From Longimicrobium sp. (GTDB lineage Bacteria; Gemmatimonadota; Gemmatimonadetes; Longimicrobiales; Longimicrobiaceae): DNA of 42,760 nt. This document shows positions 1 to 13,516 of the stretch, piece by piece; within the stretch, counting starts at the first letter, position 1; each line of letters begins with the position of its first letter. The notes below the pieces were generated by a model that was not told where the DNA came from, did not search any database, and was given only the letters and a program-made list of their open reading frames with translations. Made by a program: the position numbers and the translations under genes. Location of the stretch: NCBI GenBank assembly GCA_036377595.1, contig DASUYB010000169.1, positions 1 to 42,760 of the forward strand. The letters are read 5' to 3'.

Positions 1-203
1 GGCGCGGCAAGCGGCCGAAGGTGCGCGGCGTGGTGATGAACCCGGTGGACCACCCGCTGGGCGGCGGCGAGGGGCGCAGCTCCGGCGGCCGTCCCCCGGT
101 GAGCCCCTGGGGCAAGCCGGAAGGCGTGAAGACGCGCCACAGCAAGAAGGCGTCGAACAAGCTGATCGTGCGCGGCCGCAAGCGCGGCAAGGCCACGAAG
201 TAA
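1..203 (+). CDS. rplB: 50S ribosomal protein L2 (uL2), C-terminal fragment
   Basis: This is the last 66 or so residues of L2, cut by the window start; the frame is open from base 3 to the TAA at 201-203. L2 binds 23S rRNA domain IV and is needed for subunit association and peptidyl transfer. The hallmark loop MNPVDHP-GGGEGR is present, followed by the usual basic tail ending [10 protein letters not shown]. The His of VDHP, equivalent to the functionally important E. coli His229, is kept. The second loop residue, His231 in E. coli (VDHPH), is Leu here. It is followed by rpsS, as in the standard S10 operon, after a gap of 186 bases that holds a repeat-built hairpin. Confidence 0.96.
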
Positions 204-208
204 TACAG

Positions 209-285
209 CAGGTCCCAGGTCCCAAGTCCTAGGTCCTAAGTGGCTTTTCAGTTACTCAGGACTCAGGACTTAGGACTCAGGACTT
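209..285. repeat. Heptamer-unit inverted repeat (AAGTCCT class), copy 1
   Basis: Two arms of about 32 nt are built from the 7-nt unit AAGTCCT and its variants GAGTCCT and AGGTCCC. The left arm is at 210-241 and the right arm at 254-285, with a T-rich loop between them. The arms pair imperfectly but over their whole length, so the rplB-rpsS transcript would fold a long hairpin here. The same class recurs at 4580-4665 and 11547-11613. No T tract follows, so a simple terminator is unlikely. Confidence 0.88.
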
Positions 286-389
286 TCAGTTCGCGTCCAC
301 CACTGGCGGCCGACATCGCGGCCGCTCACGTGGACTCAGATCCGCGGGAGAATCGCAGGCCCGCGGGGAGACTAAGTGCGAGAGGAAGA

Positions 390-677
390 ATGCCAAGGAG
401 CCTGAAGAAGGGGCCGTTCGTAGAGGACAGCCTCAACAAGAAGATCCGGGCGATGAACGAGAAGGGCGAGAAGCGCGTGGTCAAGACCTGGTCGCGCAGC
501 TCCACCATCACCCCCGAGTTCGTCGGCCACACGCTGGCCGTGCACAACGGCAACAAGTTCATCCCCGTGTACCTCACCGAGCAGATGGTGGGGCACAAGC
601 TCGGCGAGTTCGCGCCCACGCGCACCTTCAAGGGGCACGGCGGCAAGCTCGTCGACAAGCGCGCCAAGGCGCGGTAA
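390..677 (+). CDS. rpsS: 30S ribosomal protein S19 (uS19)
   Basis: S19 sits in the 30S head, pairs with S13 and contacts the A-site finger and tRNA. The 95-residue protein has the family start [11 protein letters not shown] and the conserved core [19 protein letters not shown], with the usual length. The frame stays open about 150 bases upstream, but that part runs through the upstream repeat hairpin and has no S19 similarity. The ATG at 390 is preceded by AGAGGA at 381-386. The gap to rplV is 13 bases, so the two are cotranscribed. Confidence 0.97.
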
Positions 678-690
678 GGGGGATGACGAG

Positions 691-1041
691 ATGAAGGCAC
701 GTGCAATCGCCCGCAACGTCGGGATGAGCCCCCGCAAGATGCGGATGGTCCTGGACCTGATCCGCGGCCGGGGCGTGAACGAGGCGTACTCGATCCTCAA
801 GTTCTCGAAGAAGGCGGCCACCCGCCCCATCGAGAAGACCCTGCGCTCGGCCGTCGCGAACGCGACGCAGGCCGCGGACGCCTCCGGGCAGTTCGTGGAC
901 GTGGACGAGCTGGTGGTGCGCGAGGCGTACGCCAACGAGGGGCCGCGGCTGAAGCGGTTCTCGCCCCGCGCCATGGGGCGGGCCACGCCGATCATCAAGC
1001 GGACCACCGAGCTCACCATCGTCGTCGACCGCAAGGAGTAG
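691..1041 (+). CDS. rplV: 50S ribosomal protein L22 (uL22)
   Basis: L22 is an early assembly protein that contacts all 23S rRNA domains, and its long beta-hairpin lines the exit tunnel at the macrolide constriction. The 116-residue protein begins [18 protein letters not shown], matching the family N-terminus. The hairpin tip is at the segment [16 protein letters not shown] (about residues 88-103), where macrolide-resistance changes are found in other species; nothing abnormal is visible. A GGGGG tract 8 bases before the ATG acts as ribosome binding site. rpsC follows after 4 bases. Confidence 0.97.
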
Positions 1042-1045
1042 CCCG

Positions 1046-1708
1046 ATGGGACAGAAGACGCATCCGAAGGGCTTCCGCCTGGGCATCGTGGCGCCGTGGC
1101 GGAGCCGCTGGTACGCCGAGCGCGACTTCCCGGCCAAGCTCGTCGAGGACGAGAAGATCCGGAAGTACCTCAACCAGCGCCTGGGGCACGCCTCGATCAG
1201 CGACATCGAGATCGAGCGCAAGCCCGGCAAGACCATCGTCACCGTGCACACCGCCCGTCCGGGCGTGGTGATCGGCAAGGGCGGCGCCGAGGTCGACAAG
1301 CTCCGCGACGAGCTGGCCCGGCTGAGCCCCGGCAACGAGGTGGCCATCAACGTGGAGGAGGTCAAGCGCCCCGAGGTCGAGGCGCAGCTGGTGGCCGACT
1401 CCATCGCGCACCAGTTGGTGCAGCGCGTGAGCTTCCGCCGCGCCATGAAGCGCGCGGTGCAGAACGCCATGCGCGCCGGCGCCGAGGGGATCAAGGTGCA
1501 GGTGGCCGGCCGCCTGAACGGCGCCGAGATCGCCCGCACCGAGGGGTACAAGGAGGGGCGGATCCCGCTCCAGACCCTGCGCGCGGACATCGACTACGCC
1601 CAGTCCACCGCCCGTACGACCTACGGGACCATCGGGGTGAAGGTCTGGGTGTTCAAGGGCGAGGTCGTCGAGAACCGGCGCGGCCGCACCTACTCGACCG
1701 ACGCCTGA
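1046..1708 (+). CDS. rpsC: 30S ribosomal protein S3 (uS3)
   Basis: S3 lies at the mRNA entry channel and, with S4 and S5, forms the ribosomal helicase ring. The 220 residues comprise an N-terminal part starting [14 protein letters not shown], a KH domain with the loop [12 protein letters not shown] near residue 73, and the S3 C-terminal domain ending with [10 protein letters not shown]. The length is normal. AAGGAG at 1033-1038 is the ribosome binding site and overlaps the end of rplV, so translation is probably coupled. Confidence 0.97.
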
Positions 1709-1723
1709 GGGAGGAACTGACCG

Positions 1724-2185
1724 ATGCTCGCACCGAAGAGAGTCAAGTACCGCAAGCAGATGAAGGGCCGCATGCGCGGCGCTGCCACGCGGGGCAACTA
1801 CGTGGCGTTCGGCGACTGGGGGCTGCAGAGCCTGGAGCCCGGCTGGATCTCCAACCGCTCCATCGAGGCGGCCCGTATCGCCATGACGCGCCACATCAAG
1901 CGCGGCGGCAAGGTGTGGATCCGGATCTTCCCGGACAAGCCGATCACCAAGAAGCCGCTCGAGGTCCGCATGGGCAAGGGCAAGGGCAACCCGGAAGGCT
2001 GGGTCGCCGTCGTCCGCCCGGGCCGCATCATGTTCGAGCTCGAGGGGGTGGAGCCCGAGGTGGCCAAGCGCGCGCTGCAGCTGGCCGCGGCCAAGCTGAA
2101 GGTGAAGTGCAAGATCGTGGAGCGCGAGCGCCCCGAGGCCGCGGCCCCGGCGGCCGCCGCCGCCGAGCAGGGAGGTGAGGCGTGA
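1724..2185 (+). CDS. rplP: 50S ribosomal protein L16 (uL16)
   Basis: L16 organises the A-site tRNA region of the 50S subunit and is a late assembly protein. The start [19 protein letters not shown] and the core [14 protein letters not shown] are diagnostic. At 153 residues it is longer than the usual 135-140. The excess is a C-terminal Ala-rich tail (about residues 136-153) with no known function. The tail DNA contains GGAGGTGA, the ribosome binding site of rpmC, and the stop overlaps the rpmC GTG start in a GTGA arrangement. Confidence 0.97.
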
Positions 2186-2391
2186 ACGCCCCCGAGATCC
2201 GCGACATGACCGACGAGGAGATCACGGAGCGCATCGAGCAGCTCCAGGAGGAGCGCTTCCGGCTGCGCTTCCGCTCCGCCACGCAGCAGCTGGAGAACCC
2301 CATGCTGCTGCGCAACCTCCGCCGTGACATCGCGCGCCTGAAGACGGTGCAGCGCGAGCGCGAGACGCAGAACCAGGGAAGCCGCTCATGA
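2182..2391 (+). CDS. rpmC: 50S ribosomal protein L29 (uL29)
   Basis: L29 is a small two-helix protein next to L23 at the tunnel exit, where signal recognition particle and trigger factor dock. The 69-residue product shows the family pattern: an acidic first helix ([17 protein letters not shown]), then [28 protein letters not shown]. The GTG start at 2182 is chosen because GGAGGTGA at 2171-2178 is an almost perfect anti-16S match just upstream. It overlaps rplP and rpsQ by 4 bases at each end, which implies translational coupling. Confidence 0.95.
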
Positions 2392-2681
2392 GCAGCGCCG
2401 ACAACGCCGCGACCCACGAGAGCGCCGAAGAGCGCGGCCGTCGCAAGACCCGCGTCGGCACCGTGGTGTCGGACAAGATGAACAAGACCGTGGTGGTGCG
2501 CGTGGAGCGCCGCTACGCGCACCCGCTGTACGGCAAGCAGGTGACGCGCAGCAAGAAGTACCACGCCCACGACGAGAACAACGAGTACCACACCGGCGAC
2601 GTGGTGCGCATCACCGAGACCCGCCCGCTCAGCAAGCTGAAGCGCTGGCGCGTGTCCGAGCTGATCGAGCGCGCCCGCTGA
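2388..2681 (+). CDS. rpsQ: 30S ribosomal protein S17 (uS17)
   Basis: S17 is an OB-fold primary binder of the 16S rRNA 5' domain. The core starts at [25 protein letters not shown] (given here in part: residues 18-42) and continues with HPLYGK and the C-terminal [11 protein letters not shown]. At 97 residues it has about 15 extra polar residues at the N-terminus ([16 protein letters not shown]) compared with typical S17. The ATG overlaps the rpmC stop (ATGA). A 77-base GC-rich gap separates it from rplN. Confidence 0.96.
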
Positions 2682-2758
2682 CAACGGCGGCGACCCGGCC
2701 CGGGTGACGGTCCGATCCGTCTCCCGGGGCCCGGGCCCTGGATCTTAGGAGCAGACTC

Positions 2759-3127
2759 ATGCTGCAGCAGGAATCGATCGTCCGGATCGCGGACAACTCC
2801 GGCGCCAAGAAGGCGCTGGTCATCCGCGTGCTGGGCGGGAGCAAGCGCCGCTACGCCTCGGTGGGCGACCAGATCATCGTGGCGGTGAAGGACGCGCTTC
2901 CCGACGGGACCGTGAAGAAGGGCGACGTGGCCAAGGCGGTGGTGGTTCGCACCACCAAGGAGGTCCGGCGCAAGGACGGCAGCTACATCAAGTTCGACGA
3001 GAACGCCGCCGTCATCATCAACGACGCGGGCGAGCCCCGCGCCACGCGCATCTTCGGGCCGGTTGCCCGCGAGCTGCGCGACAAGCGCTACATGAAGATC
3101 GTGTCGCTGGCCCCGGAGGTGATCTGA
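2759..3127 (+). CDS. rplN: 50S ribosomal protein L14 (uL14)
   Basis: L14 forms intersubunit bridges with 16S helix 14 and is the docking site of the silencing factor RsfS. The 122-residue protein has the invariant start [20 protein letters not shown] and the C-terminal segment [22 protein letters not shown]. The length is exactly the family norm. AGGAG at 2747-2751 lies 7 bases before the ATG. The stop overlaps the rplX start by one base (TGATG). Confidence 0.98.
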
Positions 3128-3456
3128 TGGCCAAGATGAGCATCCGCCGGGGCGACCGGGTGAAGGTCATCTCCGGCAACTACAAGGACAGCGAGGGCAC
3201 CGTCCTGCGCGTGGACCGCGAGAAGAACCGCGTGGTGGTGCAGGGCGTGAACGTGCGCAAGCGTCACCGGAAGCCCTCGGCCACCAACCCCGAGGGGGGG
3301 ATCGTGGAGTTCGAGGCGCCGATCCATGCCAGCAACGTGATGCTGCTGGACCCCAAGTCGGGCGAGCCCACGCGGGTGCGCTCGGGGCAGGGGAAGGACG
3401 GCCAGCGCGAGCGGATCGCGGTCCGCAGCGGCCAGGCGATCCCGCGCGCGTCGTAA
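3127..3456 (+). CDS. rplX: 50S ribosomal protein L24 (uL24)
   Basis: L24 initiates 50S assembly by binding the 5' domain of 23S rRNA. The KOW motif is near the N-terminus (IRRGDRVKVISGNYKDSEG, about residues 5-23), followed by the conserved NVRKRHRKPS. The 109-residue length is normal. The ribosome binding site GGAGGTGATC at 3115-3124 is nearly full complementarity to 16S rRNA and lies inside the end of rplN, so L24 translation is coupled to L14. A pure heptamer array follows five bases after the stop. Confidence 0.97.
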   Translation: MAKMSIRRGDRVKVISGNYKDSEGTVLRVDREKNRVVVQGVNVRKRHRKPSATNPEGGIVEFEAPIHASNVMLLDPKSGEPTRVRSGQGKDGQRERIAVRSGQAIPRAS

Positions 3457-3460
3457 CGAC

Positions 3461-3516
3461 AGTGCCCAGTGCCCAGTGCCCAGTGCCCAGTGCCCAGTGC
3501 CCAGTGCCCAGTGCCC
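3461..3516. repeat. Perfect tandem array of 8 AGTGCCC heptamers
   Basis: Eight uninterrupted identical copies of the 7-nt unit AGTGCCC fill 3461-3516, directly after rplX. Unlike the related elements at 4275 and 8755, no opposite-strand arm follows, so this copy cannot form the long hairpin. It may be a single-arm or expanded form of the family. The remaining sequence up to rplE (3517-3635) shows no gene. Confidence 0.97.
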
Positions 3517-3635
3517 AGGTGAGCGTCGAGTGAACCGGGGCGGGGGTGCCGGGTATCAGGCCGATTCAAATCACAGCGTGACCGCCCCTCCGGATCGTTG
3601 ACGATCGCGCGGGGGATACGGAACGGAGACGAACG

Positions 3636-4268
3636 ATGGCGAAGAAGGACAAGGCGCAGGCGGCGGCCCCCGAGGCGCCGGCCGCCGAGGCGGGCCCGCG
3701 GATCAAGCCGCGGCTGCAGCGCTACTACGAGGAGACGGTGCGCGCGAAGCTGCAGGAGCAGTTCGGCTTCGCCACGCCCATGCAGGTGCCGCGGCTGGAG
3801 AAGATCACCATCAACGTGGGGCTGGGCGAGGCGCCCAAGAACCCCAAGCTGCTCGAGGGCGTGGTGGCCGAGGTCGGGCAGATCACCGGGCAGAAGCCGG
3901 TGATCACCAAGGCCAAGAAGGCCATCTCGAACTTCGCGCTGCGCGAGGGCTCGCCCGTGGGCGTGACGGTGACGCTGCGGCGCGACCGCATGTGGGAGTT
4001 CCTGGACCGGCTGGTCAACGTGGCCATGCCGCGCATCCGCGACTTCCGCGGGGTGCCCACGCGCTCGTTCGACGGCCGCGGGAACTACACCATGGGCGTG
4101 AAGGAGCAGCTCATCTTCCCCGAGATCGACTACGACAAGGTCGAGAAGGTCCACGGGATGGACATCTCCTTCGTGACCAGCACCACGAAGGACGACGAGG
4201 CGCTGGCGCTGCTGCGCGAGCTGGGCATGCCGTTCCGCGGCGAGTCGCCGGTTCTCGTGGCCGCGTAA
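3636..4268 (+). CDS. rplE: 50S ribosomal protein L5 (uL5)
   Basis: L5 binds 5S rRNA with L18 in the central protuberance and touches P-site tRNA. The core begins with [22 protein letters not shown] (residues 24-45, in part) and holds the family motifs [29 protein letters not shown] and FPEIDYDKV. The 210-residue protein is about 25-30 longer than most bacterial L5. The extra part is an N-terminal Lys/Ala/Pro-rich segment starting [20 protein letters not shown] lies upstream of the ATG. It is flanked by repeat elements on both sides. Confidence 0.97.
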
Positions 4269-4274
4269 GGGGAG

Positions 4275-4346
4275 AGTGCCCAGGTGCCCAGTGCCAAGTG
4301 CCCAGTAACTGAACCACTGGGCACTGGGCACTCGGCACTGGGCACT
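4275..4346. repeat. Heptamer-unit inverted repeat (AGTGCCC class), hairpin copy 1
   Basis: The left arm (4275-4306) and right arm (4316-4346) consist of AGTGCCC units and their reverse complement GGGCACT, separated by a 9-nt loop. Single-base changes (AGTGCCA, GGTGCCC, CTCGGCA) break perfect symmetry. The element begins seven bases after the rplE stop and would fold as a 31-bp hairpin in the spc transcript. No T tract follows. Confidence 0.93.
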
Positions 4347-4384
4347 AAGAGTCGGAAGTAGACACGCAACCAGGTACAGTCGAA

Positions 4385-4570
4385 ATGGCACGCAAGGCCC
4401 TGATCGAGAAGAGCAAGCGCAAGCCGAAGTTCAGCGTCCGGGCGCACAACCGCTGCAACCGCTGCGGCCGCCCGCGCGCCTTCCTGCGCAAGTTCGGGCT
4501 CTGCCGCGTCTGCTTCCGGCAGATGGCGCTGAACGGGGAGATCCCCGGGGTGCGCAAGGCGAGCTGGTAG
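4385..4570 (+). CDS. rpsN: 30S ribosomal protein S14, zinc-binding type (uS14)
   Basis: S14 is a late-assembling head protein near S3, S10 and S19. This is the short zinc form (rpsZ type): 61 residues with the ribbon C24-x2-C27 and C40-x2-C43, and the typical ending [11 protein letters not shown]. Zinc-form S14 is stable and common in Gram-positive and several other phyla; the non-zinc form is about 100 residues. The gene lies between two repeat hairpins, so its message is flanked by strong secondary structure. Its ribosome binding site is weak (AGGT). Confidence 0.97.
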
Positions 4571-4579
4571 GGGACCGAA

Positions 4580-4665
4580 AGTGCTAAGTCCCAAGTCCTA
4601 AGTCCTAAGTGAACTGCGCATCGGCGCACGTTCAACTCAGGACTTGGGACTCAGGACTTAGGACT
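4580..4665. repeat. Heptamer-unit inverted repeat (AAGTCCT class), copy 2
   Basis: The left arm (4580-4610) and right arm (4635-4665) are 31 nt each and made of AAGTCCT/GAGTCCC-type units. The 24-nt loop itself contains a smaller hairpin (TGCGC-ATCG-GCGCA). The element begins nine bases after the rpsN stop. The 74 bases from here to rpsH contain a TTGACA at 4675-4680 but no acceptable -10 partner. Confidence 0.93.
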
Positions 4666-4739
4666 CGCGGTTCGTTGACAATCACTCACTTCCTGAAAGT
4701 CCGGCGCTCGCTCGCCGGATACTCTAGGAGAGACCCAGC

Positions 4740-5132
4740 ATGGTGACGGATCCCATCGCCGACATGCTGACCCGCATCCGCAACGCCCAGATGGCGCGTC
4801 ATCGGAGGGTCGACATGCCGGTCAGCAAGCTGAAGGTGGAAGTGGCCCGCCTTCTCAAGGACAATCACTACATCCACGACTACAAGGTCCTGGACGACGG
4901 CAAGCACCCGGTGCTGCGCCTGTACCTGAAGTATTTCCAGGACAAGCCGGTGATCCGCGAGCTGCGCCGCGTGAGCAAGCCCGGCCTGCGCCAGTACGTG
5001 GGGGTCGACGAGATCCCGCGGGTGCGCAACGGCCTGGGGATGGCGCTGCTCAGCACCTCGCGCGGCGTGATGACCGACCGCGAGGCCCGCGCGGCCAAGG
5101 TGGGCGGCGAGCTGCTCGCCATCGTCTGGTAA
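4740..5132 (+). CDS. rpsH: 30S ribosomal protein S8 (uS8)
   Basis: S8 is a primary binder of the 16S central domain, and in E. coli it represses the spc operon by binding its own mRNA. The 130-residue protein starts [16 protein letters not shown] and ends with the RNA-binding signature [29 protein letters not shown] (in part), both family hallmarks. AGGAGAGA about 8 bases before the ATG is the ribosome binding site. Whether the autoregulatory site is conserved was not established. Confidence 0.98.
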
Positions 5133-5146
5133 GGAGGGACGATAAA

Positions 5147-5686
5147 ATGTCGCGCATCGGAAGAAAGCCCGTGGCGGTTCCCGCCGGGGTCGACATCACG
5201 CTCGACGGCAACACCGTCCGCGTGAAGGGCCCCAAGGGCGAGTTGCAGCGCACGCTGCACAAGGACGTGATCGTGCGCCGCGAGGACGGCGAGATCATCG
5301 TGGAGCGCCCCAGCGACCAGCCCGAGCACCGGGCCCTGCACGGCCTCAGCCGCACGCTGGTGGCCAACATGGTCGAGGGCGTGACCACCGGCTTCACCAA
5401 GACGCTCGAGATCGTGGGCGTGGGCTACCGCGCGGAGACGAAGCCCTTCGGGCTGACGCTGGCGCTGGGCTACTCGCACCCCATCGACTACAAGGCGCCC
5501 CCGGGGATCACCCTGCGGGCCGTCAATCCCACCACGGTCGAGGTCAGCGGGACCGACAAGGAAGTGGTGGGGCAGGTCGCGGCCGAGATCCGGTCGCTCC
5601 GTCCGCCCGAGCCGTACAAGGGGAAGGGCGTGAAGTACCAGGGCGAGGTGATCCGCCGCAAGGCGGGGAAGGCGGGCGGCAAGTAA
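5147..5686 (+). CDS. rplF: 50S ribosomal protein L6 (uL6)
   Basis: L6 sits at the base of the factor-binding stalk near the sarcin-ricin loop. It has two related alpha/beta domains. The product starts [15 protein letters not shown] and carries the C-terminal signature [23 protein letters not shown]. At 179 residues it is of standard length. AAGGAGGGA directly after the rpsH stop is a near-perfect ribosome binding site, so expression is strongly coupled to S8. Confidence 0.98.
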
Positions 5687-5739
5687 GCCGCCCCGCCCGC
5701 TACGGCTGATCATCGCATAGTCAACGAGGAAACGGAGAA

Positions 5740-6114
5740 ATGGCGAGAGCACGGATCCGGGCCAAGACGCGCGAGGACAAGCGCGTCCGCCGCCACCGCA
5801 GGGTGCGCGGCAAGGTCCACGGCACCGCGGAGCGCCCGCGCCTGGTCGTCCACCGCTCGATCAACCACCTGGAGGCCCAGGTGATCGACGACGTGGCCGG
5901 CCGCACCATCGTGGGGCTTTCGACGAACGCCCCCGACCTGCGCGGGAAGGAACAGAACAAGACCGACGCGAGCCGCGAGCTGGGCAAGGCCCTGGCCGAG
6001 AAGGCGAAGGCCGCCGGCGTCGAGCGGGTCGTCTTCGACCGCGGCGGCTACCTGTACCACGGCCGCGTGAAGGCCTTTGCCGAGGGTGCCCGCGAGGGCG
6101 GCCTCGACTTCTGA
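5740..6114 (+). CDS. rplR: 50S ribosomal protein L18 (uL18)
   Basis: L18 carries 5S rRNA into the central protuberance together with L5. The basic N-terminal region ([21 protein letters not shown]) is followed by [20 protein letters not shown] and the C-terminal [26 protein letters not shown] segment (in part). The length of 124 residues is normal. GGAGAA lies just upstream of the ATG, and rpsE follows after 13 bases. Confidence 0.97.
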
Positions 6115-6127
6115 GGAGACCAGATCA

Positions 6128-6784
6128 ATGCCTGAGAACAGAGGCGGAGGCGGCGGGCGCGGCGGCCGTGGCGGCGGGCGCGGGCGCGGCTTCGGCGGCC
6201 AGGGCGGCGACCAGGCCGGCGGCGGCGAGCGCGAAGGGCGCCGCGGCCGCGGCCGCGGCGAGGGCCGCGACGGCGGGCGCCGCGACGAGCGCCAGGGAAG
6301 CGACCTGAAGGAGAACGTGATCCACATCAACCGCGTGGCCAAGGTGGTGAAGGGCGGCCGGCGGTTCAGCTTCACCGCCCTCGTCGCCGTGGGCGACCAG
6401 GCGGGGAAGGTGGGGATCGGAACGGGGAAGGCCAACGAGGTGTCCGAGGCGGTGCGCAAGGCGCTGGAGCAGGCCCGCCGGGGGATGGTGCGCGTTCCCG
6501 TGCGCGAGGGCACCCTCCCGCACGACGTGATCGGCGAGAGCGGCGCCGGCCGCGTGCTGCTGCGCCCCGCGGCCCCGGGCACTGGCGTGATCGCCGGCGG
6601 CGCGGTGCGCGCGGTGCTGGAGTGCGTGGGCGTGCACGACATCCTCACCAAGTCGCTGGGGTCCAACAACCCCTTCAACATGGTGCTGGCCACCATGGAC
6701 GCGCTGAAGAACCTCACCACGCGCGAGCAGCTGGCCGCCGAGCGCGGCGTGCCGGTGGAGGCGCTGGGAGGTGCCCGTGGCTAA
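6128..6784 (+). CDS. rpsE: 30S ribosomal protein S5 (uS5) with Gly/Arg-rich N-terminal extension
   Basis: S5 lies at the mRNA entry site and affects decoding fidelity. The canonical S5 (double-stranded RNA-binding fold then S5 C-domain) starts near residue 58 with [21 protein letters not shown] and includes [18 protein letters not shown] and [10 protein letters not shown]. At 218 residues the protein exceeds the usual 165-175 length. The excess is residues 1-57, a low-complexity Gly/Arg tract with repeated RGG and GRG steps. The ATG at 6128 has AGGAGA upstream; a longer frame from 6077 overlaps rplR and has no ribosome binding site. Similar RG-rich tails are known in eukaryotic uS5, so the tail may bind RNA; that is inference. 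Confidence 0.95.
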
Positions 6785-6974
6785 GATCAGGATCACGCAG
6801 ACGAAGAGCGGCGTGGGCGCCCCCGAGAAGCATCGCAAGACGCTGCAGGCGCTCGGCCTCAAGCACCAGCGGTCGGTCGTGCAGGACGACAACGACGCGA
6901 TCCGCGGGATGGTCTTCCAGGTTCGCCACCTGGTGAAGGTGGAACCAATCGAAGGGCAGGTGGAGAATGGCTGA
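6777..6974 (+). CDS. rpmD: 50S ribosomal protein L30 (uL30)
   Basis: L30 is a small 23S-binding protein found in many but not all bacteria. The sequence [22 protein letters not shown] followed by [10 protein letters not shown] (shown in parts) is the family core. Two in-frame GTG codons compete at 6771 and 6777. GGGAGGTG spans 6766-6773, so only the GTG at 6777 has proper spacing. It also gives the standard N-terminus M-A-K-I-R and 65 residues. The gene overlaps the end of rpsE by 8 bases and rplO by 8 bases. Confidence 0.94.
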
Positions 6975-7422
6975 CCTGAGCAACCTGCGCCGCCCCGAGG
7001 GGTCGCACCGCGACACCAAGCGCCTGGGCCGCGGCCCCGGCTCGGGGCAGGGCAAGACGGCCGGGAAGGGGCACAAGGGCTCCAAGGCCCGCGCGGGCCA
7101 CAGCGGCCCCGGCGGCGGCAAGCCCCACTTCGAGGGCGGGCAGATGCCGCTGCACCGGCGGCTGCCCAAGCGGGGCTTCACCCCGCTCGACCGCACCGAG
7201 TACCAGGTGGTGAACCTCTGGCAGCTCGAGGCGCTGGCCGAGGGCGACGTGACGCCCGAGACGCTCAAGGCGCACGGGCTGATCGGCCACGCCGGGCGCC
7301 CGGTGAAGGTGCTGGGCACCGGCGACCTCACCCGCAAGGTGAACGTCTCGGCGCACCGCTTCAGCAAGTCGGCCCGCGAGAAGATCGAGGGCCAGGGCGG
7401 CACCGTGCAGGAGATCGGCTGA
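6967..7422 (+). CDS. rplO: 50S ribosomal protein L15 (uL15)
   Basis: L15 is a late-assembly 23S-binding protein with a long extended N-terminus. The segment LSNLRRPEGSHRDTKRLGRG is followed by GSGQGKTAGKGHKGSKAR and then the globular domain containing FEGGQMPLHRRLPKRGF. It has 151 residues, the usual size. The start overlaps rpmD and the stop lies one base before the secY ATG, so the three are translated as a coupled set. Confidence 0.97.
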   Translation: MADLSNLRRPEGSHRDTKRLGRGPGSGQGKTAGKGHKGSKARAGHSGPGGGKPHFEGGQMPLHRRLPKRGFTPLDRTEYQVVNLWQLEALAEGDVTPETLKAHGLIGHAGRPVKVLGTGDLTRKVNVSAHRFSKSAREKIEGQGGTVQEIG

Positions 7423-7423
7423 C

Positions 7424-8749
7424 ATGGCGAACCCCGTCGCGAACCTGTTCCGCATCCCGGAGCTGAAGGAGAAGATCCTCTTCACGCTCCTGGCCCTGTT
7501 CGCCTACCGGATCGGCGCCCACGTGACGGCGCCGTGGATCGACGTGGCGGCGCTGAAGGAGTATGCGGGGACCCTCGGCAACACCGCGTTCGGGATCTAC
7601 GACATGTTCGTGGGCGGGGGCTTCTCCAAGGCCACCGTCTTTGCCCTGGGCATCATGCCCTACATCTCGGCCAGCATCATGTTCCAGCTGCTGGCCACGG
7701 TGGTGCCCAGCATCGAGAAGATGCAGAAGGAGGGCGAGGAGGGGCGCAAGAAGCTCACGCAGTACACGCGCTACGCCACGGTGGTGGTGTCGATCTTCCA
7801 GGCCTACGGCTATGCCATGTTCCTGGAGACGCAGGTGCCGGGCGCGGTGGTCAACCCGGGGTGGGGCTTCCGGGTGATGATGATCCTCACGCTCACCACG
7901 GGCGCGGTGTTCATCATGTGGCTGGGCGAGCAGATCACCGAGCGCGGCATCGGCAACGGGATGAGCCTGCTGATCTTCTTCTCGATCCTCGAGGGGCTGG
8001 TCCCGGGGCTCTTCACCACCGGCCAGCAGGTGGCCAACGGCGACATCAAGCCCTTCGGCGTGGTGGTGCTGCTGGTGAGCATGGGCGCGGTGATCGCGGG
8101 GACGGTGGCGATCACCATGGCCATGCGGAAGATCCCGGTGCAGATCCCGCAGAAGGTGATGGGGCGCGGGCGCATCCGGCAGGGGCAGAAGAGCTTCATC
8201 CCGCTGCGCGTGAACATGGCGGGGGTGATGCCGATCATCTTCGCGCAGTCGATCATGATCCTGCCGGCCACGGTGGCCACCTTCGCCCGGAGCGACCGGA
8301 TGAAGGCGTTCGCCCAGTGGTTCGAGGTGTACTCGCTGCCGTACTACGTGGTGTTCACCCTGCTGATCATCTTCTTCACCTACTTCTACACCGCGATCAT
8401 CTACAACCCGGTGGACATCGCGGAGAACCTGAAGAAGCAGGGGGCGTTCGTGCCCGGGGTGAAGCCCGGCGCGCGCACCGCCGAGTACATCGACCGGGTG
8501 ATGAGCCGGATCTCGCTTCCCGGCGCCATCTTCCTGGCGATGATCGCCATCGTGCCCGCGGCGCTGGAGCGCGCCTTCGGCGTCACCTCCCTGAACCGCG
8601 TGCTCGGCGGCACCGGCCTGCTGATCGTGGTGGGCGTGGCGCTCGACACGGTGCAGCAGATGCAGCAGCACCTGCTGCTGCGGCGGTACGACGGCTTCAT
8701 GAAGAAGGGCCGCGTGAAGTTCCGCGGCCGGCAGCAGCGGTACATCTGA
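7424..8749 (+). CDS. secY: Protein translocase subunit SecY
   Basis: SecY is the channel of the Sec translocon in the inner membrane; it works with SecE, SecG and SecA. The 441-residue protein has the ten transmembrane segments expected, with motifs ALGIMPYISASIMFQLLA near residue 75 (second helix) and GNGMSLLIFFSI near residue 180. The basic C-terminal loop with RGRIRQGQKSFIPLRVNMAGVMPIIFA lies about residues 247-273 (in part). Family-typical ending: LLLRRYDGFMKKGR. The location after rplO is standard. A heptamer hairpin follows the stop. Confidence 0.98.
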   Translation: MANPVANLFRIPELKEKILFTLLALFAYRIGAHVTAPWIDVAALKEYAGTLGNTAFGIYDMFVGGGFSKATVFALGIMPYISASIMFQLLATVVPSIEKMQKEGEEGRKKLTQYTRYATVVVSIFQAYGYAMFLETQVPGAVVNPGWGFRVMMILTLTTGAVFIMWLGEQITERGIGNGMSLLIFFSILEGLVPGLFTTGQQVANGDIKPFGVVVLLVSMGAVIAGTVAITMAMRKIPVQIPQKVMGRGRIRQGQKSFIPLRVNMAGVMPIIFAQSIMILPATVATFARSDRMKAFAQWFEVYSLPYYVVFTLLIIFFTYFYTAIIYNPVDIAENLKKQGAFVPGVKPGARTAEYIDRVMSRISLPGAIFLAMIAIVPAALERAFGVTSLNRVLGGTGLLIVVGVALDTVQQMQQHLLLRRYDGFMKKGRVKFRGRQQRYI

Positions 8750-8754
8750 ACGAC

Positions 8755-8825
8755 AGTTCCCAGTGCCAAGTGCCCAGTGCCCAGTGACACCGTTCCTGGG
8801 CACTGGGCACTGGGCACTTGGCACT
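8755..8825. repeat. Heptamer-unit inverted repeat (AGTGCCC class), hairpin copy 2
   Basis: The left arm (8755-8786) and right arm (8796-8825) are about 30-32 nt, built of AGTGCCC/AGTGCCA units, with a 9-nt loop. The arms are closer to perfect complementarity than those at 4275. It lies between secY and adk, starting six bases after the stop. It supplies the apparent upstream extension of the adk frame, which should not be read as protein. Confidence 0.95.
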
Positions 8826-8843
8826 TCTGACCGAGAGATCGAC

Positions 8844-9476
8844 GTGGACCTGATCCTCCTCGGCGCCCCGGGAGCCGGCAAAGGCACCCAGGGCGCCCTG
8901 CTGTCCGAGAAGCTGGGCATCCCCAAGATCGCCACCGGCGACATGCTGCGCGACGCGGTGCGCGCCGGGACCGATCTCGGTCGCGAGGCGAAGACGTACA
9001 TGGACTCGGGCGAGCTGGTGCCCGACGCGGTGATCCTGGGGATGGTGCGCGAGCGGCTCTCCCAGCCCGACGCCGCCGACGGCGCCATCTTCGACGGCTA
9101 TCCGCGCAACGCCGCGCAGGCCGCCTCGCTCGACGAGATGCTGGCGGGGATCGGGCGGCGGATCGACGCCGTGGTCTACCTCGACGTGGACGACGACGAC
9201 ATCGTGCGCCGGATGAGCGGGCGGCGCACCGATCCCGAGACGGGGATGGTCTACCACGTGGAGCACAATCCGCCGCCGGCCGGGATCGCCGCGCGCTGCG
9301 TGATCCGCCCCGACGACGTGGAGGAGACGGTGCGCAACCGGCTGGAGGTCTATCGCCGCAGCACCGCGCCGCTGGTGGAGCACTACCGCGCGGCCGGCGT
9401 TCCCGTGCACACGGTGGACGGGGGACGGGCGATCGACGCGGTGCAGGACGACATCCTCGCGTTGCTCCGGCGGTGA
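8844..9476 (+). CDS. adk: Adenylate kinase
   Basis: Adenylate kinase interconverts ATP plus AMP with two ADP in the cytoplasm. The P-loop GAPGAGKGT is at residues 6-14, followed by the AMP-binding segment TGDMLRDAVR and the FDGYPRN motif. A LID region begins RRMSGRRTDPETGMVYH, and the closing R-x-DD-x-EETVRNR motif follows. The LID is slightly short and holds only one Cys, so it is not the zinc type. The GTG at 8844 gives M-D-L-I-L-L-G and 210 residues; the frame upstream of it is the repeat hairpin. The stop overlaps map (GTGA). Confidence 0.94.
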   Translation: MDLILLGAPGAGKGTQGALLSEKLGIPKIATGDMLRDAVRAGTDLGREAKTYMDSGELVPDAVILGMVRERLSQPDAADGAIFDGYPRNAAQAASLDEMLAGIGRRIDAVVYLDVDDDDIVRRMSGRRTDPETGMVYHVEHNPPPAGIAARCVIRPDDVEETVRNRLEVYRRSTAPLVEHYRAAGVPVHTVDGGRAIDAVQDDILALLRR

Positions 9477-10228
9477 TCCAGCTCTACCGCGCCGAGGAGA
9501 TCGACGCCATCGCGCGGGCCGGGCGCGTCCTGGCGGCGCTCTACCGGGTGATCCCCGAGCGGGTGAAGCCGGGCGCCACCACGGCCGAGCTCGACCGCTT
9601 CGCCGAGGACTTCATCCGCTCGCACGCGGGCGCCGAGCCGGCGTTCAAGGGGCTGTACGGCTTCCCGGCCACGCTCTGTACCAGCGTGAACCACGAGGTG
9701 GTGCACGGGATCCCCAACCACCGGCGCAGGCTGCAGGAAGGCGACATCCTGAGCGTGGACTGCGGGGTGAAGCTCGACGGCTTCTACGCCGACGCGGCCA
9801 ACACCTATCCCGTGGGCCAGGTCGCCCCGGACGTGGCGTCGCTGTTGGAGAAGACGGAAGCCGCGCTCCACCGCGGCATCGCCGAGGCGGCGCCGGGGCA
9901 TCGGCTGGGTGACGTGGGCGCGGCCATCCAGGAGGTGGCGGACGCGTCCGGCTACGGCGTGGTGCGCGACCTCGTGGGCCACGGCGTGGGCCGCAAGCCG
10001 CACGAGGACCCCCAGGTGCCCAACTACGGGAAGCGGGGGAAGGGACTCAAGCTGGTGGAGGGGATGGTCCTCGCGATCGAGCCCATGTTCAACCTGGGCG
10101 TGGAGCGGGTGAGCACCCTTCCCGACCGCTGGACGGTGGTGACGGTGGACCGCAAGGTCTCCGCCCACTTCGAGCACACGGTGGCGGTGACGGCCGACGG
10201 CCCGCGCATCCTCACCGACGGGAGCTGA
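9473..10228 (+). CDS. map: Methionine aminopeptidase, type I
   Basis: This enzyme removes the initiator methionine from nascent proteins. All five metal ligands are visible: D96 (SVDCG), D107 (FYADAA), H170 (VGHGVG), E203 (AIEP) and E234 (FEHT). The substrate-side His78 lies in NHEVVHGIP. The 251-residue length matches type I without an N-terminal extension. The GTG start overlaps the adk stop by 4 bases. In the standard order infA should follow, but the next 239 bases hold a hairpin and a promoter instead. Confidence 0.96.
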   Translation: MIQLYRAEEIDAIARAGRVLAALYRVIPERVKPGATTAELDRFAEDFIRSHAGAEPAFKGLYGFPATLCTSVNHEVVHGIPNHRRRLQEGDILSVDCGVKLDGFYADAANTYPVGQVAPDVASLLEKTEAALHRGIAEAAPGHRLGDVGAAIQEVADASGYGVVRDLVGHGVGRKPHEDPQVPNYGKRGKGLKLVEGMVLAIEPMFNLGVERVSTLPDRWTVVTVDRKVSAHFEHTVAVTADGPRILTDGS

Positions 10229-10241
10229 GGAACAGCAGGTC

Positions 10242-10312
10242 TCATGCAGAGTCAGCAGGGTCAGCGGAGAACTGCCACTGTTTTCTCTGCTGACTCTGCT
10301 GACTCTGCGTGA
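10242..10312. repeat. Inverted repeat with 9-nt units (GAGTCAGCA class)
   Basis: Two 30-nt arms (10242-10271 and 10283-10312) pair with only three mismatches around an 11-nt loop. Each arm contains direct copies with a period of about 9 nt (AGAGTCAGC). The arm length equals that of the heptamer hairpins although the unit differs. A second small perfect stem (TCCGGAT/ATCCGGA) follows at 10326-10343. The element lies where infA would be expected. Confidence 0.92.
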
Positions 10313-10401
10313 GTCAAATGTCTTTTCCGGATTCGTATCCGGAGTCGATTCGCGGTGAGCGGCGATCCCCGGCGTTTCGGTCGATGGAGACGCGTTCGGG
10401 G

Positions 10402-10430
10402 TTGCCAAATCGCGTTGATGTTGTTAAGTT
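10402..10430 (+). promoter_or_regulatory. Candidate sigma-70-type promoter for the rpmJ-rplQ operon
   Basis: TTGCCA at 10402-10407 and TAAGTT at 10425-10430 are separated by exactly 17 bases in an AT-richer stretch. The predicted start would lie about 30 bases before rpmJ. The same form (TTGnnn-17-TAnnnT) precedes four other transcription units in this window, which raises confidence in each. Confidence 0.55.
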
Positions 10431-10467
10431 TTCAGGCTTCGTTTTCCACGGAGATAGAGAGGCGACG

Positions 10468-10584
10468 ATGAAGGTCCGCGCGAGCGTGAAGCCGATCTGC
10501 GAGCATTGCAAAGTGGTGCGGCGCCGAGGGGTGATCCGCATCATCTGCAAGAAGAACCCGCGCCACAAGCAGCGCCAGGGTTGA
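10468..10584 (+). CDS. rpmJ: 50S ribosomal protein L36 (bL36), zinc form
   Basis: L36 is the smallest 50S protein and binds 23S rRNA near the factor-binding region. The 38 residues begin [19 protein letters not shown] and end [12 protein letters not shown]. The zinc ligands C11, C14, C27 and H33 are all present, so this is the zinc (C+) paralogue. The ATG at 10468 has GAGAGG upstream; the in-frame region before it includes the promoter and hairpin and is not coding. It is probably the first gene of a separately initiated alpha operon. Confidence 0.96.
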
Positions 10585-10622
10585 TCGGCGCCCACGACAA
10601 TCCAGGCTGAAGGAGAACACGG

Positions 10623-11003
<381 letters not shown>

Positions 11004-11007
11004 GATC

Positions 11008-11067
11008 CGTCCGCGGGAGATTCGTCTTCCGCGGACGAACCCTGGTCGGGGCGGCGCTCCCGCCCCG
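11008..11067. other. Two adjacent strong stem-loops in the rpsM-rpsK spacer
   Basis: The first stem is CGTCCGCGG (11008-11016) with CCGCGGACG (11029-11037), 9 perfect pairs and a 12-nt loop. The second is CGGGGCGG (11047-11054) with CCGCCCCG (11060-11067), 8 perfect pairs, extendable outward by two, with a 5-nt loop. Neither is followed by a T tract, so termination is not indicated. They could act on mRNA processing or translation of rpsK; that is inference. Confidence 0.7.
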
Positions 11068-11147
11068 ATGATCACGCCCGCCCGTCACGCGGCGGGAAGA
11101 AGGAACCGCACGCGCGGTAGGCCGCGCATCACACCACAGGAGCAGGA

Positions 11148-11540
11148 ATGGCCAAGCCGAAGGCAGCGGGGCGTCCCAAGACCAAGCGCCACGTGGACAG
11201 CGAGGGGGTCGCGCACATCAAGGCGACCTTCAACAACACGATCGTCACCATCTCCGACATGGCCGGCAACGGCGTCGTGTGGGGGAGCGCCGGCAAGGCC
11301 GGCTTCAAGGGCAGCAAGAAGAGCACGCCGTTCGCGGCCACGGTGGCCGCCGAGCAGGCCGCCCGCGAGGCGCTGGCGCTGGGGATGAAGCGCGTGCACG
11401 TGCGCGTGCAGGGCCCCGGCAGCGGCCGCGAGAGCGCGATCCAGGCGCTGGCCGCCGCGGGGCTGAACATCCGTTCGATCCGCGACGTCACGCCGATCCC
11501 GCACAACGGCTGCCGCCCGCCCAAGAAGCGGCGCGTGTGA
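11148..11540 (+). CDS. rpsK: 30S ribosomal protein S11 (uS11)
   Basis: S11 lies on the 30S platform near the Shine-Dalgarno helix and pairs with S18/S21. The core from [19 protein letters not shown] through [20 protein letters not shown] to [20 protein letters not shown] is fully typical. The 130-residue length is normal. AGGAGCAGG directly precedes the ATG. A heptamer hairpin begins seven bases after the stop. Confidence 0.97.
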
Positions 11541-11546
11541 CCGGAT

Positions 11547-11613
11547 AGTCCTGAGTCCCAAGTCCTAAGTCCTGAGTGGCTCACTCAGGACTTGGGACTT
11601 AGGACTTTGGACT
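11547..11613. repeat. Heptamer-unit inverted repeat (AAGTCCT class), copy 3
   Basis: The two 31-nt arms, at 11547-11577 and 11583-11613, are made of AGTCCTG/AGTCCCA/AGTCCTA units and flank a 5-nt loop (GGCTC). This is the most compact copy of the class and would form an almost continuous 31-bp stem between rpsK and rpsD. Confidence 0.95.
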
Positions 11614-11698
11614 TTGCAGTTCGAAGGCGTAAACCCTCGCGACCGTCGGGGGGACGAAGCCGAGCCAACATCATCTCACTGGGAGAGAACGGTCTACC

Positions 11699-12337
11699 AT
11701 GGCCCGTTACACCGGACCCGTCTGCAAGCTCTGCCGCCGCGAGGGGCAGAAGCTGTTCCTGAAGGGGATCAAGTGCTTTACCGAGAAGTGCCCGGTGGAG
11801 CGCCGTCCCTACGCCCCCGGCCAGCATGGCCAGAGCGGGGGCGGCCGCCGCAAGAAGGCCAGCGAGTACGCGCACCAGCTGCGTGAGAAGCAGAAGGTGA
11901 AGCGCATCTACGGCGTGGCCGAGAAGCCGTTCCGCAACCTGTTCGAGAAGGCCGCGCACCAGACCGGCGTGACGGGCGAGAACCTGCTCGTGGCGCTGGA
12001 GAGCCGGCTGGACAACGTGGTGTACCGCATGGGCTTCGGCGCCAGCCGCAAGGAGGCGCGCCAGCTCATCCGCCACGGGCACGTGCAGGTGAACGGCCGC
12101 AAGCTCGACGTGCCGAGCGCGCAGGTGCAGCCCGGCGACGAGGTGCGCATCGCCCCCAAGAGCAAGGACATCCTCCCGGTGGAGGCCGCCCTTGCCGCCC
12201 GGAGCCGCCCGACCGTGGTGTCGTGGCTGGCGGTGGACGAGGGGAGCCGCACCGGCCGGATGGTGACGCGCCCGTCGCGCGCCGACATCCCGCTGGCGGT
12301 GCAGGAGCAGCTCATCGTCGAGCTCTACAGCAAGTAA
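11699..12337 (+). CDS. rpsD: 30S ribosomal protein S4 (uS4), zinc form
   Basis: S4 initiates 16S 5'-domain assembly and guards the mRNA entry; in E. coli it represses the alpha operon. The N-terminal zinc site is intact with C9, C12, C26 and C31 (VCKLC and KCFTEKC). The S4 RNA-binding domain lies at about residues 97-160 with [33 protein letters not shown] (in part). It has 212 residues and ends QLIVELYSK. The closest purine-rich site is GGGAGA about 12 bases upstream of the ATG, which is rather distant. Confidence 0.97.
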
Positions 12338-12433
12338 CCAGGTGCCGGAGCGGGCCTTGGCGGCGGGCGCCTTTCACGGGCGGCCGCCGCTCGGGTCCTT
12401 TCCCGCATTCTTTCCTCACTATGGAGGGATAGA

Positions 12434-13516
12434 GTGGAACTCGATATCACCGGCCTGCAGATGCCGAACCTCCCCGAGCAGCCGCGCACGGGGCAGATCG
12501 TGCTGCGTCCGCTGGAGCGCGGCTTCGGGCACACGCTCGGCAACACCATGCGGCGCATCCTGCTGTCGAGCCTGCGCGGCGCGGCGGTGTGGGCGTTCCG
12601 CACCGACGGCGTGCTGCACGAGCACCAGACCATCGCGGGCGTGGTGGAGGACGTGCACCAGGTGATCCGCAACCTGAAGACGCTGGTGCTGCGGATGACC
12701 GAGGACGCCGACGAGGCGGTGCTGGAGCTGCGCGCGCGCCAGTCGGGCGCGGTGACGGCCCGCAACATCACCGCGCACCCGGCGGTCGAGGTGGTCAACC
12801 CCGATCACCACATCCTCACGCTGACCGAGGACCGCGACCTCCGCATCGAGCTGTACGTGAACAAGGGCCGCGGCTTCGTGCTGGCCGAGGCGCACCCGAT
12901 CCCGCGCGGGATGCCCGCCGACCTGGTGCGCGTGGACGCCGTGTACAACCCGGTGACCCGCGCCAACTTCGTGGTCGAGGACACGCGCGTGGGACAGCGC
13001 ACCGACTTCGACCGCCTCGTCCTCGAGGTGGAGACGAACGGGGCCATCGACGTGCGCAGCGCCGTGCAGTACGCGGCGCGGCTGGCCATCGAGCACCTAG
13101 CCTTCCTGGCCGGCGGCACCCCCGAGTGGCGCCAGGACCGGAGCTGGGGCGAGGGCGCCGGCCCGGGCGCGGCGGTTCCGGCTGGGCGCGCGCCCGTGCC
13201 CCCGCGGCTGCAGGAGCTGCTGAACCGGCCCATCGAAGACCTGACCGAGCTCTCGGTGCGCAGCCGCAACTCGCTGCAGAAGGAGAACATCCACACGGTG
13301 CGCGACCTGGTGCAGCGCACCGAGCAGCAGATGCTCTCCATCGACAACTTCGGCAAGAAGAGCCTGCAGGAGATCAGCGAGTTCCTGGCGGGCCACGGGC
13401 TCCGCTTCGGGCAGGAGCTGGAGCAGACGGACGACGGCACGCTGTACTGGGTGCTGCCCGAGAGCGACGGCGGGAACACCGACACCGCGGCCGCGCTGGC
13501 CGACGAGGAGCTGTGA
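12434..13516 (+). CDS. rpoA: DNA-directed RNA polymerase subunit alpha
   Basis: Alpha dimerises to nucleate core RNA polymerase, and its C-terminal domain contacts UP elements and activators. The N-terminal domain has the signature [20 protein letters not shown] (about residues 32-51) that binds beta. The C-terminal domain includes [21 protein letters not shown] and the helix-hairpin-helix [11 protein letters not shown] Gly/Ala/Pro-rich linker (about residues 238-258) separates them. At 360 residues it is longer than the E. coli protein (329), mainly through the linker and C-terminal tail. The GTG at 12434 has GGAGGG 5 bases upstream. Confidence 0.97.

Follow-up and report, generated by a model that had tools for sequence, protein, structure and literature searches.

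The gap between the ribosomal protein genes rplX and rplE of Longimicrobium sp. (genome G000) carries eight identical AGTGCCC units without an inverted partner, and the explanation favored here, with about even confidence, is that this array belongs, with only one arm, to a class of repeat elements anchored at stop codons. In this genus, every sampled genome has a small set of 7–9-nt words. Arrays of AGT words start directly behind stop codons in the sense orientation, and about half of them have an inverted second arm; paired arms, each roughly 25–32 nt long, give a hairpin behind the cistron. Such hairpins occur at nearly all of the ribosomal-operon gaps measured, the repeat unit changes at the same site between species, and at rplX–rplE the length difference between species is one-sided.

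Coordinates refer to the window, i.e., the whole stretch of 42,760 nt that was analyzed, and are collected in Table 1. Pfam matches to L24 and L5 identify the flanking genes as rplX and rplE. The array, which is followed by AGG, is reported by Tandem Repeats Finder as 3460–3518 with period 7, 8.4 copies, and 100% matches, while other period-7 rows in the window have 73–95% matches, except for a 2.1-copy CCGCGCG row at 19214–19228. With up to two mismatches, AGTGCCCAGTGCCC has 19 matches in the window, while shuffles give 0.86 on average and 4 at most. No exact complement to the array of at least 5 nt was found in the next 110 nt. The sequence itself, the repeat search, and the complement search thus bear out the initial annotation, which had described a perfect eight-copy array lacking the partner arm.

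Table 1. Positions in the window of the focal array, its neighbors, and the paired 7-mer elements.
Feature	Positions	Strand	Remarks
Focal array (AGTGCCC)x8	3461..3516	+	Sense orientation, second arm absent
rplX (L24)	3127..3456	+	Pfam PF17136; stop TAA 4 nt before focal array
rplE (L5)	3636..4268	+	Pfam PF00673, PF00281; starts 119 nt past focal array
G-rich stretch	3530..3559	+	Imperfect pairing with last focal copies; lines up with far-arm side of G009
Leader-like stretch before rplE	3578..3628	+	Kept in genus; outside array, at far edge of slot
Paired 7-mer element behind rplB	209..284	+	AGTCCTA type
Paired 7-mer element behind rplE	4275..4346	+	AGTGCCC type; RNA fold z −5.9
Paired 7-mer element behind rpsN/rpsZ	4579..4666	+	AGTCCTA type
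Paired 7-mer element behind secY	8754..8825	+	AGTGCCC type; RNA fold z −8.3
Paired 7-mer element behind rpsK	11547..11616	+	AGTCCTA type

In RNA folding, the last focal copies pair imperfectly with about 3530–3560, no better than shuffles do (z 0.63 and −0.34), and the first 120 nt behind the rplX stop fold with z −1.0. The G-rich stretch at this place is a possible remnant of a lost second arm, a candidate on sequence grounds rather than a proof. A backup-stop-codon function for the arrays was set aside because the words AGTGCCC and AGTGCGAA, as read, contain a stop in no frame.

Every other AGT-type element of the window has two arms and imperfect units. The claim that the focal array is the only member with one arm and identical units therefore stands inside the window, but not in the genome, where perfect lone arrays also lie behind pth (AGTGCTG x12) and alaS (AGTGCCC x4). 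A sixth paired element, built of the 9-nt word CAGCAGGGT / CTCTGCTGA, is found behind map at 10233–10308; this word family recurs across the genome with the flanks TCTCAC/GTGAGA. Separately, stretches before rpsS, rplE, rpsH, and rpsD (about 293–345, 3578–3628, 4690–4732, and 11627–11662, respectively) are kept in the genus and have the look of structured leaders, e.g., GGCGTAAACCCTCGCGACCGTCGGGGGGACGAAGCC before rpsD. These are possible ribosomal-protein leader RNAs; Rfam returned no family matches in window positions 1–13000.

The wider class was sampled in G000 (716 kb, or 10% of the draft genome, which totals 7.2 Mb in 208 contigs) and in its nearest relative, G003 (352 kb), for a total of 1.07 Mb. 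Since the G000 sample was drawn mostly from pattern-carrying contigs, with three contigs of ~1 kb (L161–L163) left out, its densities are biased upward; two short contigs of G003 were read as N. Gene calls came from a home-made codon model, and arrays lying at least half inside called genes were dropped; this removed 76 of 211 arrays in G000 and 32 of 108 in G003, of which 66 and 27, respectively, had period 9. Noncoding arrays of period 7 numbered 54 in G000 and 30 in G003 (0 and 2 after shuffling), those of period 8 numbered 22 and 36 (0 and 2), and those of period 9 numbered 21 and 4 (0 and 2), with the harmonic 14 also raised. Arms of inverted pairs made up 68/135 arrays in G000 and 32/76 in G003.

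The 7-nt words include AGTGCCC, AGTCCTA, AGTCCTG, AGTCCCA, AGTGCTG, and GGGGACA, the 8-nt words AGTGCGNN, ACGCGGAG, and AGTACGNN, and the 9-nt words AGTCAGCAG, ACGGAGGNA, and CGCAGAGGN. In the AGT-type words, AGT is constant and the inner 4–5 letters are variable. Three distinct 9-mers have the TCTCAC/GTGAGA flanks in common. A different dispersed repeat, GTCATCCTGAGGCCGGCC...GCAGGCCGAAGGATCTAT, lies downstream of several stop-side arrays, including those behind pth and alaS (L198 and L208 in G000; L199 and L209 in G003).

The pattern (AGTSCYN)3AGT has 416 forward and 327 reverse matches in G000, as compared with 11 and 1 for the reversed control. It occurs in nine of the ten genomes of the genus, with 20 to 1217 matches each; G007 is without it, yet has hairpins of other words. 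In a phylum sample of 395 genomes, 19 had matches, seven of them from the focal genus, and only G088 exceeded 100 outside the genus. G088 and G056, from distant genera of the same class (L234–L293 and L294–L313), use words of their own. In G088 the word is AGTCCCG, with arms reaching at least 24 perfect units among the matches listed, and 9 of 14 sampled array-bearing windows, which were partly chosen for their arrays, have an arm at −1 to 12 nt from a called stop. G056 has TGACTCC-type words (222 matches). Both have the reverse of the arm order seen in the focal genus. A replication-strand polarity was hinted at in G088 among the matches listed and was dropped, as a longer pattern listing and GC skew in twenty 20-kb windows gave no clear support. 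Among the best four named RplE relatives listed, from which own or near genomes may be excluded, three are Gemmatimonadetes MAGs (65–68% identity).

There are 118 AGT-type 7/8-mer arrays in the 1.07 Mb of G000 and G003 (AGT-type counts leave out period 9), and 107 AGT-type arrays lie in gaps that contain a stop. Of these 107, 57 lie −12 to +15 nt from the stop, with 56 in sense and one in antisense orientation, the latter holding both orientations. Random placement and orientation (2000 rounds) gave a mean of 8.6 such sense arrays and at most 20. Arrays are densest in co-directional gaps (7.9 per 10 kb), followed by convergent (3.7) and divergent gaps (1.5), and pairs start within 25 nt behind a stop in 24/34 cases in G000 and 13/16 in G003.

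An array behind a stop does not need a hairpin, since sense arrays without a partner are no rarer than those with one. Thirty-six of the 118 arrays are unpaired and in sense to the upstream gene, and 32 of these start −10 to +15 nt from the stop; the corresponding figures for paired stop-side arrays are 29 and 26. The focal array is thus a typical unpaired stop-side array. The proposal that it reveals how such elements form or decay, by slippage in one arm or loss of the other, gains from the species comparison below, but it is no odd intermediate given 36 unpaired sense arrays against 29 paired ones.

Behind pth, an array or pair exists in four of ten genomes (G000, G001, G006, and G008) and is lacking in six, and the twelve AGTGCTG units of G000 are in phase with the stop TGA. 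Behind alaS, the four AGTGCCC units of G000 correspond to ~3.5 AGTCCTG units in G003, while seven other genomes read are without an array (G008, with only a weak partial match, was left out). In G003, the alaS stop codon lies inside the first repeat unit (L209), so the array took over the gene end.

Relatives were also compared site by site in the ribosomal operon. An RplE match was obtained in eight of the ten genomes (all but G001 and G008), and 44 of the 48 gaps (eight species by six gaps) were readable and 43 foldable. A hairpin was called at z < −2 against 60 shuffles of the first 120 nt; the array labels come from a crude pattern that misses some degraded or G-rich arrays, e.g., G006 rpsZ–rpsH. 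Whatever the repeat unit, 40 of 43 gaps have a hairpin above shuffles, including 29 of 30 scored as array-bearing and 11 of the 13 others. The three without are rplX–rplE in G000 and G003 and rplE–rpsZ in G006, making the focal gap the only scored array-bearing gap without a hairpin. At rplX–rplE, G003 folds with z −1.2, near the value of G000, and the six other species range from −2.4 to −5.0. Loss of an arm is therefore likely.

Unit counts at this gap (stop-side plus far arm) are 8 + 0 in G000, 8 + 4 in G004, and 4 + 4 in G005. G006 has a pair of AGTSCTT-like words and G009 a short degraded pair, whereas G002, G003, and G007 are without an array, G007 having a plain hairpin. The close relatives G004 and G005 differ in what looks like the expansion of one arm. 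The comparison suggested in the initial annotation, of copy number and second arm among relatives, hence turned up differences in both, and an identical copy number with no arm in all relatives, the pattern of a fixed site, was not seen among the eight species. One-arm expansion and arm loss both find support in this variation. In G004 and G005, a TGAC tetramer flanks the element on each side, and in G002 a single TGAC is present without the element; this may reflect either a deletion across the short repeats or an insertion accompanied by duplication.

Words are also exchanged at fixed sites. At rplB–rpsS, GGGAATA, GGGGAAT-like, and AGTGCCN/AGTCCTG words are found among the three closest species (G002, G004, and G005; terminal branches 0.006–0.010). 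At rpsZ–rpsH, a plain GC hairpin stands in G002, and its ends (CAGYGCC, GGCRCTG) agree with those of the repeat hairpin of G005; at secY–adk, GGGGACA-like words are found in G003 and AGTGCCC in G000. Elsewhere, G004 has inverted pairs of the 8-nt words ACACAGAG/CTCTGTGT and ACGCGGAG (L227–L230), and the word differs between G004 and G005 in one orthologous pair. Along ~60 kb of G004 contigs, two elements, neither of AGT type, could be mapped in G005, and four could not be placed, including a AGTGCGTG array at a contig end; no G005 array without a G004 partner was returned over this length.

The arms themselves carry no sign of selection for pairing unit by unit. Paired arms have a common word family, with 22 of 80 units identical as compared with 9.0 when partners are swapped, but no common unit order, as shuffling within the arm gives 23.4 (or 23.0 against 25 observed when counted from inside); 26 of 50 pairs had sufficient clean units for this test. 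Mismatches between arms are of the A.C type in 53 cases and the G.U type in 44 (43 of 50 pairs could be oriented). Selection for RNA pairing through mirrored unit order or G.U wobbles thus left no signal, and none is visible at the level of units. In 13 of 46 pairs, the far arm exceeds the stop-side arm by >10 nt; the reverse holds in one. As to the T run that follows the GC hairpin of an intrinsic terminator, 7-mer pairs have 25% T in the 12 nt past the far arm, as compared with 17% (G000) and 16% (G003) in noncoding DNA.

Unpaired stop-side arms have no hidden partner: their longest complement has a mean length of 4.84 nt, and that of controls 4.44 nt (p 0.38, n = 32), as opposed to 12.3 against 4.0 nt for paired arms (n = 26). 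The notion that lone arrays are purer or longer as a class did not hold up, the differences from paired arms being not significant in purity (p 0.66) or length (p 0.26). Among all arms, 32/91 unpaired and 16/74 paired ones exceed 40 nt (p 0.06), and 18/91 and 8/74, respectively, are perfect; on the stop side alone, 16/36 unpaired and 2/29 paired arms exceed 40 nt.

To account for these observations, we suggest that arrays grow and shrink by replication slippage, as the difference between G004 and G005 and the uniform copies would imply. In the G000/G003 lineage, the rplX–rplE hairpin would have decayed, and what was left of it, the stop-side arm, would have become uniform and expanded to eight copies, with the focal lone array probably losing the hairpin role. 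Where a hairpin persists, it may cap or insulate the upstream cistron rather than end transcription, either by protecting mRNA or as an obstacle to the terminating ribosome, as for E. coli REP hairpins; reports for E. coli describe ribosome stalling at REPs within 15 nt of the stop and mRNA protection by REP hairpins (PMC12306157, citing Liang, Rudd and Deutscher 2015). The position, the orientation, and hairpins that persist while their letters change all speak for a function just past the stop, and the simplest assumption is that it acts in mRNA. Several array hairpins sit within the ribosomal operon, and ordinary transcription termination so close to the stop appears less likely, because in E. 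coli almost complete repression has been described for a terminator placed several bp downstream of a gene (PMC4824070). The sense-at-stop rule together with hairpin persistence through letter replacement makes a stop-side role directly testable, and the focal gap provides a natural example of a lost hairpin with one long arm left.

The spread of words to hundreds of sites and the sense rule are left unaccounted for by a stop-anchored class shaped by slippage and decay. Among other explanations, the elements could be non-autonomous, of REP or MITE kind, and inserted behind stops by a transposase, the focal array being a truncated copy. Hundreds of copies per genome, the rplX–rplE element of G004 and G005, which G002 lacks and which is bounded by TGAC at either end, the flanks common to three different 9-mers, and Y1 transposase genes in 9/10 genomes of the genus are all compatible with this, as are arrays ~1.3 kb from one of the two Y1 genes of G000 (L188). 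On the other hand, AGT arrays were found at one of 12 Y1 loci (12 of 26 matches, 2.4–3.3 kb each), the loops between AGT arms differ among elements, and so do unit number and order among copies, such that insertion in this form seems unlikely. REP and REPIN elements have a conserved palindrome with copies flanking a Y1 gene, and what is found here is arrays of words with unmirrored unit order; a REP transposase as the spreader is unsupported by the loci viewed. Another reading, quite improbable, is that an unknown process writes words of 7–9 nt from a small dictionary common to the whole genome, in sense, onto stops and overwrites whole hairpin stems at the same site. If true, it would account for the exchange of AGTGCCN, GGGAATA, and GGGGAAT at rplB–rpsS among three very close species while the hairpin persists, and for the array that supplies the alaS stop in G003; the arrays would then not be passive microsatellites.

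The strict sense orientation and stop position, the frequency of unpaired arrays, which is as high as that of paired ones, and the retention of AGT while the inner 4–5 letters vary would also suit a functional RNA (or DNA) site, e.g., for a protein reading AGT-N4 repeats, with the second arm optional. Relatives, however, have other words (GGGAATA, GGGGAAT) or no array at the same stop, and arm order is opposite in the distant genus G088, which leaves this reading rather improbable. The minus strand of the focal array, with eight G3 tracts and 4-nt loops, would permit a G-quadruplex of the GGGCACT strand such as has been proposed for Xanthomonas and Nostoc heptamers, and 11 of 24 AGTGCCC-type arrays are quadruplex-capable. 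In the sample of 165 7/8-mer arrays, though, only 23 are capable on either strand and 142 are without the motif, so that it is not a class feature and membership in a quadruplex-repeat family is not claimed. G3-free families (AGTCCTA, AGTCCTG, AGTGCTG, AGTGCGGA, and others) sit behind stops likewise, and several of them also center on 4–5 units. With most word families quadruplex-incapable in a single layout, a quadruplex was rejected as the general cause and is very improbable for the focal array. Finally, a draft in 208 contigs invites the suspicion that assembly dropped a second arm or misjudged the copy number, as repeats and hairpins are hard to assemble; the array spans just 59 nt, however, and at five other sites in the window the assembly resolved paired elements of similar size, making an artefact hardly credible.

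A one-armed member of a stop-anchored class remains the preferred reading, and known systems provide several points of comparison. No description of such repeats in Gemmatimonadota was found in the literature searched, which did not extend to subscription papers, and the repeat letters themselves were met only in two unrelated papers. Tandem 7-nt words, as found here, also make up the STRR heptanucleotide repeats of heterocystous cyanobacteria. The sampled genomes have the features of heptameric repeats, i.e., a tandem 7-nt unit in noncoding DNA at many sites, and contain 8- and 9-nt units as well.

E. coli REP/BIME elements resemble the present class in having many hairpin copies within about 15 nt behind stops, but REPs are palindromes of conserved sequence (PMC12306157), whereas tandem word arrays are found here, and most Y1 loci (11 of the 12 viewed) are without AGT arrays. 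The TAACTGA repeats of Beggiatoaceae likewise form genome-wide intergenic heptamer arrays of 2–6 copies; they differ in lying mostly upstream of start codons in one orientation and in comprising a single word with one indirect repeat (PMC4679880).

The closest known system is the heptamers of Rehm et al. 2015 (PMC4692102), which are GGGAATC in Xanthomonas and GGGGA(C/T)T in Nostoc; three heptanucleotides are mentioned for Calothrix. Like the repeats described here, they are noncoding 7-nt tandem words, with about four units preferred. They too form convergent pairs (70 and 75 in two Xanthomonas genomes), tend to lie close to the stop and on the coding strand, are seldom found between divergent genes, and vary in length from one relative to another; their role is left open in the discussion of that paper. 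Of those heptamers, 83% keep their position when two species are compared, and the single or pair type is usually preserved (PMC4692102), whereas type and unit often differ between species at the gaps compared here, and the word at one site may be replaced. The present repeats further differ in their 8/9-nt words, their many word families per genome, and the quadruplex incapability of most arrays. Heptamer repeats are widespread in bacteria, and this genus combines many word families with one layout.
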